This document shows positions 12,689 through 28,373 of a stretch of 41,420 bases of DNA, one piece after another (within the stretch, counting starts at the first letter, position 1; every line of letters begins with the position of its first letter). The DNA is from Gracilibacillus oryzae (GTDB lineage Bacteria; Bacillota; Bacilli; Bacillales; Amphibacillaceae). The notes under the pieces are model-generated. The model worked only from the letters and a program-made list of their open reading frames with translations, had not been told where the DNA came from and searched no databases. The translations under genes and the position numbers were made by a program. The stretch spans positions 44,298 to 85,717 of the forward strand of contig NZ_ML762424.1 of NCBI RefSeq assembly GCF_009498735.1, in the 5' to 3' direction.

Positions 12689-12711
12689 TTTCGACAAATT
12701 CTGAAAATTTA
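12689..12711 (-). promoter_or_regulatory. CodY-like operator upstream of the nucleoside operon
   Basis: Minus-strand AATTTTCAGAATTTG (12695-12709) matches 12 of 15 positions of the CodY consensus AATTTTCWGAAAATT. It overlaps the stop codon of the CoA-transferase beta gene and ends 12 bp before the -35 hexamer. The longer block 12689-12711 recurs, with one base inserted, upstream of metY at 28424-28447. CodY control of nupN is known in B. subtilis. Confidence 0.6.
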
Positions 12712-13428
12712 AAATTCCACTGACCTGTAATCATATGGATCGATTTGTTTTAACATTTGCAGCTGTTTTGCTGTCGGCTCTTTCGTGTACCGTACCTCAT
12801 CATAAATCAGTTCGAAGCCTGTTTGCTTCTGCACTTCTTCTAATGTTGTATGCGGGTGAATCGAATCAAGCTGCAGTTTTCCATTTTTGAAAACAAATAC
12901 ACATAATGGTGTCACAATTTTCCATAAGTTCCCTCTTGTTGTTACAAATTCAACTTGTTCAACAAACGTTCGAGGATCATGCTTTGTCCGCCAGATGATC
13001 GCTTTTTTGGCAGTCGGGATCAAAACAGCACTCCCTGCCCCGCCTGGTAAACGAACTTTTGGCTTATGATAATCACCTATCACCGATGCATTCACATTTC
13101 CGTTAATATCAAACTGAATTCCACCTAAAAAGGCGACGTCCAGTTTGCCGCGCATCGACAGATCAAAAATCTGATCAAGCGGGAAATAGGATTCTCCTGC
13201 TTCCACTAAATCTGAACCAGCAGAAGAATAGGAGGATTGCTTAACAGAACTTGGATTCACACCACCCGGAATGTTTAAATGCACGAGATTTGGTGCATGT
13301 AATTTTCTTGCCAGATGCATTGCTACCATCGGCATTTGCGAGGATACACCATGAAAAACTGTCTCTCCGTCCTTGAGCATATCTGCAATTGTACATGTCA
13401 TTAAATCACTGATCCGATAATTTACCAT
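12709..13428 (-). CDS. CoA-transferase family I, beta-like subunit (catalytic Glu apparently absent)
   Basis: A 239-residue protein resembling the beta subunit of glutaconate/3-oxoacid CoA-transferases: FLGGIQFDINGNVNASVIGDYHKPKVRLPGGAGSA in the centre and VTTRGNLWKIVTP after it. In true transferases a catalytic Glu precedes a Gly in the first third (VESG in Acidaminococcus GctB); here the matching segment reads HLNIPGGVNP (50-59) with no Glu. Class I homologues without this Glu include the IpdAB ring-opening hydrolases, so the enzyme may not be a transferase. It overlaps the alpha gene by 7 bp and ends the BMC gene series. The alignment is from memory. Confidence 0.75.
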   Translation of the reverse strand: MVNYRISDLMTCTIADMLKDGETVFHGVSSQMPMVAMHLARKLHAPNLVHLNIPGGVNPSSVKQSSYSSAGSDLVEAGESYFPLDQIFDLSMRGKLDVAFLGGIQFDINGNVNASVIGDYHKPKVRLPGGAGSAVLIPTAKKAIIWRTKHDPRTFVEQVEFVTTRGNLWKIVTPLCVFVFKNGKLQLDSIHPHTTLEEVQKQTGFELIYDEVRYTKEPTAKQLQMLKQIDPYDYRSVEF

Positions 13429-14264
13429 GTTCTGTTCCTCCTCTCATGCTGATAATCTTTTTTATCATACTTTCTGACAAACTCTATAATTTCCTGTTTC
13501 TCTTTTAAGCCGATAAATTCTCGTAATGCTTTTTCATCCACATCATATTTTTTATAACAAGAAGCAGGTGCTGCTCCGCCCGGAACATGAACAACGGCAT
13601 CAACCAAAAATGCCGGAATATCGATCTTCTCTTTGTTTTGTTTGATTCGAAAAGGTGAAACGACCTGTTCTGTTGTAATAATCACACGATCTGCTGCCCG
13701 GGACATTAAGACATCCTCGAATTTCGGTCCATCTATGATCGCATTTCCTTCTTCATCACATTCCTGTACATGAATGACGGCAACATCCGGAAAAATGGTG
13801 CGGACTAATGTAACAGGTTCCCCTGTAAATGGATCTTCCACGACAACAAAATAGTCATTATGTTCAAGCAGATCCCCATATTTCAAGCCACTGACAGGCA
13901 TAAACGGAACATTTGCTGATGCACCCCTTAATGCACTGATTACAGTGTAGCAAGCATGTTCATTTGCTTTGACCTCACCTGTCTGAACAGCCTTGCGGTA
14001 ATGTGGCGGCAGCCCGTAAACTGTCTCATAGCTTACAAACCCAGCATCCACTGTACCAACTGCTCCAACTGCACATAACAGATCAATATCATGTGCTCCG
14101 GCAGTTTTTACAAGTCTCAATTCCTTTTTCTCTTGTCTGGCAAGTTCTCTGACAAATGCCATCGGTGCACGGTGCAAAACATTCCCGCCCAGTGCAACGG
14201 TTGATTGATTCGAAATCGTTCCTGCTGCTTCTTTCAATGATTGTAATTTATACAATATCTTCAC
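13422..14264 (-). CDS. CoA-transferase family I, alpha-like subunit
   Basis: A 280-residue partner of the following beta-like gene. Seen: STVALGGNVLHRAPMAFV (glycine-rich N-terminal loop), LVKTAGAHDIDLL, GFVSYETVYGLPPHYRKAVQTG, EHACYTVISALRGA and VPFMPVSGLKYGDLL. These features fit the GctA/IpdA branch rather than acetate CoA-transferase. It starts 15 bp after the flavoprotein gene and is probably co-transcribed with the BMC operon. It may move CoA between the acyl-CoA made in the BMC and a carboxylate, or hydrolyse or open an acyl-CoA. No encapsulation-like helix is seen, so it is probably cytosolic. Confidence 0.8.
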   Translation of the reverse strand: MKILYKLQSLKEAAGTISNQSTVALGGNVLHRAPMAFVRELARQEKKELRLVKTAGAHDIDLLCAVGAVGTVDAGFVSYETVYGLPPHYRKAVQTGEVKANEHACYTVISALRGASANVPFMPVSGLKYGDLLEHNDYFVVVEDPFTGEPVTLVRTIFPDVAVIHVQECDEEGNAIIDGPKFEDVLMSRAADRVIITTEQVVSPFRIKQNKEKIDIPAFLVDAVVHVPGGAAPASCYKKYDVDEKALREFIGLKEKQEIIEFVRKYDKKDYQHERRNRTW

Positions 14265-14279
14265 CTCCAGCTGGCCTTT

Positions 14280-26896: not shown

Positions 26897-26925
26897 GTAT
26901 ATCCATGATCTCACTTTAATAGAAA

Positions 26926-26944
26926 CAAGGGGACTTGCCCCATG
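26926..26944 (-). terminator. Weak hairpin after metY
   Basis: On the minus strand GGGG/CCCC arms (with flanking CA/TG) around CAAGT are followed by TTGTTTCTATT. The stem is short, so read-through from metY into the importer and BMC genes is likely. Confidence 0.4.
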
Positions 26945-26987
26945 TTCCAATAAGAAATAGAAGCTTGTACTTTATCATGGTGAATGA

Positions 26988-28373
26988 TCAGATTCTCTTC
27001 TGCTGCAGTTGTTTGATTACTTCTTGTGTTAGTAATTGAACGATGTCTTCTGTATTGTTCTCAGCCTGATTGGATGCTTTAGTCTGCTGGCTCATACCTG
27101 TTGCCTTTTGTAATGATTGATCCAAATCTTCATAAAGATCATCGATATTCTCCAGACCAACAGATAATCGCACCAAGTCTTCTGTTACACCTGTTGCTTC
27201 CAATTCTTCCTTCGATAATTGCAAATGGGTAGTTGTGCCTGGATGAATAATCAAGCTCTTTGCATCGCCTACATTCGCCAGATGTGACCATAACTGCATA
27301 TTATTAATTAACGCACTTCCTGCTTCCCTGCCGCCTTTAATCCCAAACACAACGACAGAACCAAATCCATTCTCTAAATGCTTCTTGGCATATTGATGGG
27401 ATGGGTGTGAAGCAAGACCAGGATAGCTTACCCAGCTTACTGCAGGATGGCGTTCCAGTCTTTGGGCTAAATCTAACGCGTTTTGATTATGACGTTCCAC
27501 ACGCAAATTCAATGTTTCCAGCCCTTGTAATAATTGAAACGCATTGAAAGGACTTAAACATGCGCCAAGGTCTCTTAATAACTGCACACGCAATTTCGTC
27601 GCAAATGCAATATCGCCAAAATCTTTTGCATAAACAATCCCGTTATAACTGCGGTCTGGTTCAATAAAGCCAGGAAACTTTGACTGATTCCAATTAAAAT
27701 TCCCGCCATCTACAACGATACCGCCGATTGATGTACCATGTCCGCCAATCCATTTTGTTGCAGAATGTACGACAATATCTGCACCTTGTTCAATCGGACG
27801 GCAAACATATGGTGTCGCAAATGTATTGTCAACAATTAACGGAATGTTGGCATCATGGGCAATTTTCGATACTTCCGGAATATCCAGCACATGCAGACTT
27901 GGGTTACCAATCGTTTCTGCAAAGAGTGCCTTTGTTTTGTGATTAATGGCTTTCCTGAAATTATCTGGGTCTGTCGGATCAACAAAATGCACTTTAATTC
28001 CGTAGCGAGGTAAAGTTATCGCAAATAAGTTATATGTACCACCATAAAGATTGGTTGCTGCGACGATTTCATCACCTGCTGATGCAATATTCATAATCGC
28101 CATCGAAATACCTGCCATACCAGAAGCGGTGGCAACAGCAGCTGCTCCCCCTTCCAGCAATGCCATTCTTTTTTCAAATACATCTAAAGTCGGATTCATT
28201 AATCGACTGTAAATATTTCCATTCTCTTGCAGCGAGAATAATTTCTCTGCATGATTTGTATCTTCAAACACGTATGAAGTTGTTTGATATATCGGTACAG
28301 CACGCGATCCTGTTGTCGGATCAGGTGTCTGCCCGCCATGTAATAATAACGTTTCTAAACGTTTATTGTTCAT
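26988..28373 (-). CDS. metY: O-acetylhomoserine sulfhydrylase (MetY) with C-terminal encapsulation-like helix
   Basis: A 461-residue PLP enzyme making homocysteine or methionine from O-acetylhomoserine and sulfide or methanethiol. Seen: [17 protein letters not shown] (53-69), [23 protein letters not shown] (the Asn-Pro that marks MetY), [13 protein letters not shown], Schiff-base K207 in [12 protein letters not shown], and [12 protein letters not shown]. The catalytic core normally ends near residue 426 ([10 protein letters not shown]). Here about 35 more residues follow: a polar linker (427-440) and a short amphipathic helix, [14 protein letters not shown] (443-456), the same layout as the aldolase's encapsulation peptide. 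The frame opens at 28388, but GGAGG lies 8 bases before the ATG at 28371-28373. It is the first gene of the BMC region, on the same strand, behind a promoter with a CodY-like box. Confidence 0.93.

Follow-up and report, generated by a model that had tools for sequence, protein, structure and literature searches.

We have analysed a 41,420-nt stretch of the genome of Gracilibacillus oryzae (contig NZ_ML762424.1, positions 44,298 to 85,717 of the forward strand), hereafter called the window, in whose numbering all coordinates are given. It carries genes for a bacterial microcompartment (BMC) together with those for the enzymes of the dihydroxyacetone phosphate (DHAP) shunt, probably specifying a metabolosome for 5-methylthioribose (MTR). 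All genes named from this locus are open reading frames on the minus strand. They run from metY (26988..28388), for an O-acetylhomoserine (OAH) sulfhydrylase (TIGR01326, 669 bits at a cut-off of 495), through the genes for the binding protein (25718..26830), the RbsA-like ATPase (24108..25625) and the RbsC-like permease (23101..24111) of an ABC importer, the last two called by profile match, to three adjoining genes that constitute a DHAP-shunt cluster. These are mtnK (21870..23087; MTR kinase family; TIGR01767, 460 bits, cut-off 275; 319 bits with PDB 2olc), mtnA (20793..21857; MTR-1-phosphate isomerase family; TIGR00512, 430 bits, cut-off 279) and the gene for the predicted signature enzyme, a class II (fuculose-phosphate-type) aldolase near 6btd and 6btg (19973..20770). 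The aldolase scores under the cut-off of every NCBIfam family among the matches listed (25 of 31), the best being 141 of 250. The locus copy of mtnK is the only match in the genome.

Downstream of the aldolase gene lies the core of a metabolosome: five genes with PF00936, one with PF03319, and those for a CoA-acylating aldehyde dehydrogenase and a phosphotransacylase, both above their cut-offs. The aldehyde dehydrogenase (AldDH; 18452..19972) belongs to the EutE/PduP family (NF011927, 649 bits, cut-off 403). The five shell genes, each with a single PF00936 domain, score 46.5–101 bits (cut-off 24.5) and are the only matches in the whole genome: protein 1 (18121..18441) scores 46.5 bits, protein 2 (17811..18098) scores 84.3 bits, protein 3 (17434..17814; 52 bits) has a charged C-terminal extension, and proteins 4 (17169..17441) and 5 (16607..16882), each at 101 bits, are of the main-facet type. 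The PduL phosphotransacylase gene (15928..16593; NF011652, 258 bits, cut-off 209; PF06130, 252 bits) and that for a BMC-P vertex protein (15645..15914; EutN_CcmL PF03319, 85 bits) follow. The set continues with CDR (14280..15611), a flavoprotein of the CoA-disulfide-reductase/NADH-oxidase type (NF007123, 601 bits, cut-off 458; PDB 3cgb, 403 bits), and ends in two subunits of CoA-transferase fold, CtA (13422..14264) and CtB (12709..13428), scoring 75 and 76.5 bits with PF01144. The gene list and order given in the initial annotation are borne out by the open frames and profile scores. The span proposed there, 12709-28373, holds as to position, but metY starts with a TTG at 28388, and the gene set extends on both sides, to a TauE/SafE-family exporter gene upstream of metY (28463..29209; PF01925, 103 bits) and to a nucleoside-type ABC importer and a phosphorylase downstream (6567-12601). 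Profile scans of 12709-30142 detected no alcohol dehydrogenase, an enzyme that is also missing from other accepted BMC types (PMC4207490; for this and the other papers cited, statements refer to the portions of the text available to us).

The gene set recurs in other Firmicutes. Among 200 genomes searched for near full-length AldDH relatives (at least 59% identity), eight besides that of the window carry one, and the aldolase, AldDH, BMC, PduL, BMC-P, CDR, CtA and CtB are encoded in all eight loci; mtnK and mtnA lie within the stretch in seven (L027-L031, L033 and L034; L numbers are our locus labels), though not in L032. A scan of named genomes with an aldolase alignment yielded 61 loci, mostly in records of Bacillaceae, Paenibacillaceae and Clostridia; they overlap with the eight AldDH-found loci (several are from the same genomes), and the counts are not additive. 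Shell genes occur in the stretch in 33 of the 61, L102 (aldolase 37%) being left out of the 33. MtnK, MtnA, CDR, CtA, CtB and the importer ATPase and permease are each encoded in 29 of these 33 loci, the AldDH, PduL and BMC-P in 31 and the binding protein in 28, while five BMC-H genes are present in 19, four in 11 and a single BMC-P gene in 29. As MtnK, MtnA, AldDH, PduL, CDR, CtA and CtB are found all together in 26 of the 33, the grouping is more than chance. The shell locus with an aldehyde-oxidising core around MtnK, MtnA and the aldolase, as initially described, is conserved in Bacillaceae and Clostridia.

Two of the four loci without mtnK and mtnA end just before the aldolase gene (L081 and L082); the other two (L048 and L099) do not. 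In Acetoanaerobium noterae (L115), the aldolase, AldDH, four BMC proteins, PduL, BMC-P, CDR, CtA, CtB and the binding protein are encoded in a stretch without mtnK and mtnA. No shell match lies in the stretch in 26 of the 61 loci; of 19 whole genomes searched (those of 18 shell-less loci and of L093), 13 have PF00936 and six have none. We dropped L086 and L088-L090 as shell-less loci, their genomes having PF00936 matches, which in the L090 genome lie on the contig of the pathway genes. In the high-G+C loci, the open reading frame caller misread strands, and absences there are weak. A DeoR-type regulator gene is present in 28 of the 61 loci, including 24 of the 33. An iron alcohol dehydrogenase family gene (PF00465, one member scanned) occurs in 12 of the 61, including 11 of the 33, all of them clostridial records except L077, labelled Paenibacillaceae; since it is nearly confined to clostridial loci, NAD+ recycling may differ between Bacillaceae and anaerobes.

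Three proteins carry terminal helices resembling encapsulation peptides. In the model of the aldolase, a C-terminal helix at residues 240-260 (19991..20053) follows a low-confidence linker (229-237); the AldDH and PduL have theirs at the N-terminus, at residues 1-24 (19901..19972) and 1-25 (16519..16593), respectively. The best hydrophobic moments of the aldolase, AldDH and PduL extensions, 0.70, 0.63 and 0.61, rank in the top 0.2-0.5% of segments within the same protein, and all three extensions are conserved in relatives. The C-terminal extension is present on 33 of 33 shell-linked aldolases and missing in L092, L096, L097 and L098. The ends of MtnK and MtnA are unremarkable (top 7-50% in hydrophobic moment) and have no such helix. 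The initial annotation had the shunt moved into the shell; this fits the aldolase and the two enzymes acting after it, but since MtnK and MtnA are devoid of encapsulation-like helices, the shell probably does not enclose the shunt in full, and the predicted cargo consists of the aldolase, AldDH and PduL.

The importer had been called a pentose importer. It is an ABC sugar importer whose binding protein is probably of the MTR type. A profile of the binding protein made from 22 relatives scored 414 bits with 5ulb and 217 with 4ry8, the next solved structure following at 90. A fold search with the binding-protein model (mean pLDDT 89.5) ranked them likewise (5ulb, E 2e-33; 4ry8, E 4e-26; next, 1e-16); the first named ribose-binding protein, at E 4e-16, trails 4ry8 by ten orders of magnitude. 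The latter is entitled 5-methylthioribose transporter solute binding protein TLET_1677, and 5ulb, 45% identical to the protein of the window, is a Yersinia protein; our literature search found no paper naming either structure. Apart from the more distant clostridial proteins treated below, identity with the window's protein is 60-79% at the loci with a binding-protein match. The importer, thus, suggests MTR rather than a generic pentose as the substrate. A probable MTR importer, mtrACB, is named in a study of the MetJ regulon (PMC3228920). As for the kinase, that of B. thuringiensis is about equally efficient with 5-deoxyribose and MTR, while no activity on ribose was detected (PMC6079011).

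Genes for an MTA/SAH (5′-methylthioadenosine/S-adenosylhomocysteine) nucleosidase and for the acetate kinase AckA are present in the Gracilibacillus genome. MtnD (PF03079) has no match there, the B. subtilis control being recovered, and we therefore rejected the classical (universal) methionine salvage pathway for this genome. The downstream genes offer a plausible, probably second entry route, for nucleosides. They encode a BMP/PnrA-type binding protein (11564..12601; PF02608, 188 bits), an ATPase (9941..11446; profile match) and two permeases (7971-8894 and 8896-9957; PF02653) of a nucleoside importer, and a nucleoside phosphorylase family protein (6567..7331; PF01048, 140 bits). This route is plausible because similar sets of importer and phosphorylase adjoin mtnA and the aldolase gene elsewhere: in Paenibacillus (L072 and L080), a phosphorylase relative 50% identical to that of the window is encoded beside mtnA, a nucleoside-transporter gene (called by profile in L072, by similarity judged by eye in L080) and the aldolase gene. 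A plasmid of the gut bacterium Pusillibacter faecalis (pMM59_01; L116) carries genes for the aldolase, a DeoR regulator, a cupin and an SDR, with mtnA, a BMP importer and deoD, and there is no mtnK in the stretch; we read this set as a putative nucleoside form of the pathway. A collection of E. coli genomes had no DNA match to mtnA, and the E. coli DHAP-shunt genes could not serve as a yardstick.

Taken together, these findings make it likely that the locus encodes a metabolosome for MTR, and probably for 5-deoxyribose too, a statement that stands apart from any role of CtA/CtB and CDR. Both sugars are by-products of S-adenosylmethionine (SAM) use. MTR, and probably 5-deoxyribose, would be taken up by the ABC importer, phosphorylated by MtnK and isomerised by MtnA to 5-methylthioribulose-1-phosphate in the cytosol. 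The sugar phosphate would then enter the shell, where the encapsulated aldolase would yield DHAP together with 2-(methylthio)acetaldehyde or, in the case of 5-deoxyribose, acetaldehyde, the shell keeping the reactive aldehyde from escaping. The encapsulated AldDH would convert the aldehyde to an acyl-CoA and PduL would form the acyl-phosphate, usable by AckA, with recovery of CoA. MTA or 5′-deoxynucleosides may enter via the downstream importer and phosphorylase, joining the pathway at the substrate of MtnA. Gene content, families, synteny, helices and the kinship of the binding protein are what we observed; the localisation of the enzymes and every reaction in Gracilibacillus are deduced from them.

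A number of observations weigh against this interpretation. Identity between 4ry8 and the binding protein of the window is just 31-32%, and the clostridial binding proteins are 41-42% (L073, L076-L079, L100 and L101) or 24-28% (L083, L084 and L093) identical to the latter; the argument for MTR is strongest for Bacillaceae and Clostridium, because the other clostridial binding proteins are more distant. Fuculose-type enzymes also belong to the family of the aldolase, and one that is 49% identical is encoded in an L-fucose operon. The N-terminus of CtB also scores high (moment 0.50, top 0.44%), so the hydrophobic moment is not specific. Aldolases with the tail, among them those of Cytobacillus-type loci, occur without shell genes in the stretch (L053, L060-L062, L064-L072 and L080), in the case of L060, L072 and L080 in genomes without any PF00936 match, and the tail alone is, therefore, no proof of a shell; candidate readings are that such tails are relics or, in other genomes, mark cargo of another BMC. 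L083 and L084 encode MtnK, MtnA, the aldolase and shell proteins in a stretch that matches neither AldDH nor PduL, and metY is found in no more than five of the 33 loci (L043-L046 and L063, the last from Clostridium polyendosporum). In the first four, which are Gracilibacillus/Saliterribacillus relatives, a TauE match adjoins metY. L083 and L084 are from Anaerotruncus colihominis and have two BMC-P genes; this species is listed under the SPU4 type (PMC8156839).

A tree of 47 AldDH sequences places the enzyme of the window and those of 32 scan loci (L075 and L102 included) in one clade of 33, with a support of 0.985. The AldDHs of L089, L090 (the same as L109), L093 and L110 (from the genome of L086) lie among further BMC AldDHs, in a clade that comprises 13 sequences (support 0.91). 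These four uncultured-Clostridia genomes carry mtnK, and in L109 a single run of genes encodes CDR, CtA, MtnK, MtnA, PduL, AldDH and an RnfC-type protein, on a contig that also has PF00936 matches. Since mtnK-bearing genomes fall into two separate clades, the pathway genes seem to have been joined with two different AldDHs, in a comparison that covers the AldDH tree alone.

CtA and CtB had been annotated as CoA-transferase-type subunits. The fold (PF01144) agrees with this; the catalytic residue does not. The nearest solved relatives of the pair are 5mzw, 1poi and 6co6 (128, 104 and 88 bits with CtA), which we take to be the AibAB decarboxylase, glutaconate CoA-transferase and the IpdAB hydrolase, respectively. 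All 34 compared CtB sequences have Ile53 where subunit B of CoA-transferases carries its catalytic Glu, presumably equivalent to the Glu of GctB, while CtA has Cys105 (codon 13950..13952) in 34 of 34. In the alignment, this Cys faces the residue that is Glu in 6co6 and Ala in 6coj, presumably Glu105 of IpdA.

A CtB match at 1e-30 occurs in 22 of 398 genomes of the same phylum, that of the window included. We examined the neighbourhoods in 12 of the 21 other genomes, nine being left out, as was a second match in genome G494 (L140). In nine of the 12 (L142, L143, L144, L145, L147, L148, L149, L150 and L151), CtA is split by exactly one in-frame TGA, which aligns with Cys105 in every one of the nine; in L141, L146 and L152, a Cys occupies this position. 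SelB scores above the cut-off in all nine TGA genomes and in the three genomes with the Cys version, though not in three Gracilibacillus genomes. In six of nine foldings (L142, L143, L144, L145, L150 and L151), a hairpin starts 15 bases past the TGA; that of L147 begins two bases earlier, L148 and L149 take other folds, and a fold is predicted for the sequence of the window too, in a comparison made with no shuffle control. The split CtA is a candidate for a selenoprotein family in which UGA would be read as selenocysteine (Sec). The pair lies near a disulfide-reductase-type redox protein in eight of the 12 neighbourhoods. By profile, L144 encodes two heterodisulfide-reductase-like proteins with CCG domains and a Pyr_redox_2 protein, and L142 a Pyr_redox_2 protein; similar redox neighbours were identified by eye in L145, L147, L148 and L150, and L149 and L151 have CDR-type matches nearby, that of L149 with a rhodanese domain. 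We saw no redox neighbour in L141, L143, L146 or L152; the first two of these stretches break off at a contig end. In the literature, as far as its text was available, our search returned nothing on this subject that joins selenoprotein or selenocysteine, CoA-transferase and heterodisulfide reductase.

With less confidence, and with the balance of our judgement somewhat on the side of doubt, we suggest a terminal step in which Cys105 of CtA/CtB would cut the C–S bond of methylthioacetyl-CoA reductively to acetyl-CoA and a methyl disulfide. CDR would reduce this disulfide with NAD(P)H, freeing methanethiol, which would also re-oxidise the NADH of AldDH in a locus without alcohol dehydrogenase, and MetY, where present, would fix methanethiol into methionine. 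O-acetylhomoserine sulfhydrylases can use methanethiol. A difficulty for this step is that encapsulation-like ends are absent from CtA and CDR and at best weakly developed in CtB, so that the thioester would need to pass out of the shell, or CtA, CtB and CDR enter it otherwise. A wider scheme, for which our expectation is lower again, is an O2-independent organelle for the complete use of MTR: the aldehyde would be oxidised to a CoA thioester, not reduced, and a Cys/Sec heterodimer of CoA-transferase fold would cleave the thioether to acetyl-CoA and methanethiol, with electrons from CDR or, elsewhere, from heterodisulfide-reductase-like proteins.

Other explanations concern the substrate above all. 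The main one could be 5-deoxyribose, deriving from the 5′-deoxyadenosine of radical-SAM enzymes; the aldehyde would be acetaldehyde and sulfur would not be involved, which would leave CtA/CtB and CDR in an accessory role. In B. thuringiensis, 5-deoxyribose is the established substrate of the Drd pathway, whose kinase accepts either sugar (PMC6079011); EUT compartments, and by proposal those of the SPU type, also handle acetaldehyde (PMC8217296), and acetyl-phosphate suits the AckA encoded in the genome. We nevertheless regard it as unlikely that 5-deoxyribose comes first, as the importer's kin is an MTR-binding protein, no part in the oxidation of acetaldehyde is known for CtA/CtB or CDR, which are each encoded in 29 of the 33 loci, and metY occurs in two lineages. 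Ordinary ribose or ribonucleosides, passing from ribose-1-phosphate via ribulose-1-phosphate to DHAP and glycolaldehyde, are very improbable: the related kinase has no detected activity on ribose (PMC6079011), and ribose-binding proteins are far more distant than the MTR-binding one, even though the importer belongs to the ribose-importer superfamily, a nucleoside importer and phosphorylase lie downstream and the Pusillibacter plasmid joins deoD, the BMP importer, mtnA and the aldolase gene in a stretch without mtnK. A ribulose-1-phosphate aldolase model scores 103 on the aldolase, against a cut-off of 300. A fucose/rhamnose-type (PVM-like) compartment with recruited MtnK and MtnA homologues would account for the class II aldolase and the frequent DeoR-type regulator, but we give it even less credit, as MtnK and MtnA exceed their equivalog cut-offs, neither a fucose/rhamnose isomerase nor an FGGY kinase is among the genes scanned at 12709-28388, and the L101 (Hungatella) and L078 (Lacrimispora) genomes have their other class II aldolases in stretches without shell matches.

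For the CtA/CtB pair, the alternative is a true CoA-transferase acting between acids, with CDR as a CoA-disulfide reductase or NADH oxidase in redox housekeeping, which would be compatible with a metabolosome for MTR. Both subunits score above the PF01144 cut-off, and CDR is also close to NADH oxidase (NOXase profile, 352 bits); it may be a simple NADH oxidase. A true transferase is improbable, in our opinion, in view of the invariant Ile53 in place of the catalytic Glu, the equally invariant Cys105 and the in-frame UGA in nine of nine split relatives. Of the solved relatives, 5mzw and 6co6 would be a decarboxylase and a hydrolase, as assumed above, and 1poi a transferase.

Elsewhere in the window, the two SAM riboswitches detected, at 3172-3272 (minus strand) and 3520-3621 (plus strand), belong to a sulfur cluster near the operon, where they sit between a PHO4-type permease/TP-methylase pair and two genes of Cys/Met metabolism; neither is located before the operon, and we rejected its control by them. 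Scans returned 64 promoter and 19 terminator sites, where 55.6 and 13.0 would be expected, and were not used as evidence. Genes for a lipoate-protein ligase and lipoyl synthase (30427-32205, plus strand) are divergent from the operon; as a radical-SAM enzyme, the synthase is a source of 5′-deoxyadenosine. A gene resembling those for extracellular solute-binding proteins (PF01547, one member scanned; L058:15337-16539) lies in the shell part of 14 of the 61 loci. Eight relatives (L035-L042) represent another BMC locus type, with an AldDH 46-49% identical to that of the window, PduL, two BMC-H and three BMC-P. L104, L105 and L106 (Cytobacillus firmus, Sporosarcina globispora and Cytobacillus massiliigabonensis), where BMC and BMC-P genes adjoin genes that by eye resemble those of cyclic-amide/xanthine catabolism, have no AldDH or PduL match, look like yet another BMC type and were left out of the count of aldolase partners.

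If the proposed function is true, a known cellular waste sugar has an organelle of its own in environmental and gut Firmicutes, which would explain the handling of a volatile sulfur aldehyde, predict a source of methanethiol and give a function to a microcompartment type that the catalogue possibly lists without one. The study of the methanethiol-forming pathway (PMC5893883) leaves open what becomes of the methylthio product once the aldolase has acted. The O2-free scheme, if true, would supply the last step of a DHAP-methanethiol shunt and bring with it a new enzyme class and a selenoprotein family; the Cys/Sec heterodimer would be an unusual use of the CoA-transferase fold.

Our literature search found no microcompartment for methylthioribose or 5-deoxyribose, although papers pairing microcompartment with one further term could have escaped it. 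The main text of the 2021 BMC catalogue (PMC8217296) names no such function in its available portion; the comparison covered that text, its supplementary gene lists being outside it. In A. woodii, a methylthioribose kinase gene adjoins the pdu cluster and was called unrelated to BMC function (PMC7593272). The DHAP shunt and Drd salvage (MtnK-MtnA-Ald2; DrdK-DrdI-DrdA) have the same three enzymes in the same reaction order, and the model of the locus aldolase is close to the B. thuringiensis aldolase of the 5-deoxyribose pathway (6btd and 6btg). The available portions of the papers on these pathways do not mention a microcompartment or an aldehyde dehydrogenase; in those pathways, the aldehyde is set free or, as the authors infer, turned into 2-(methylthio)ethanol by reduction (PMC5893883).

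In PVM and PVM-like compartments, a class II aldolase likewise produces DHAP and an aldehyde, followed by an aldehyde dehydrogenase, under DeoR regulators, and the locus aldolase, known here from sequence and model, agrees in fold and family with the fuculose/rhamnulose-phosphate class II aldolase of PVM. The locus differs by MtnK, MtnA and an MTR-type importer instead of fucose/rhamnose enzymes, by CDR and CtA/CtB, and by a locus type with one BMC-P (29 of 33). The SPU types (DeoC, RpiB) also turn a sugar phosphate into an aldehyde that AldDH oxidises; they are defined by pfam01791 and pfam02502 (PMC8217296), neither of which turned up in general scans of 12709-28388 (Pfam in part, NCBIfam whole). 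MIC4, of unknown function, shares an AldDH and a class II aldolase (PMC8156839).

For the terminal step, a precedent is the methanethiol-forming salvage of R. rubrum and R. palustris, with thiol-dependent cleavage of an alpha-methylthio carbonyl, a mixed disulfide and methanethiol; in R. rubrum, a glutathione-dependent methylsulfurylase is followed by O-acetylhomoserine sulfhydrylase (PMC5893883). A cupin, glutathione and 1-(methylthio)xylulose-5-phosphate serve there, whereas we propose a Cys enzyme of CoA-transferase fold and a CoA thioester. As to the claim that the BMC type itself is new, we found no description of its function, but by their main-text descriptions the MIC4 and PVM-like bins overlap with it in gene content, and the locus may be binned in the catalogue as one of these; the new part is the function, not necessarily the locus type.

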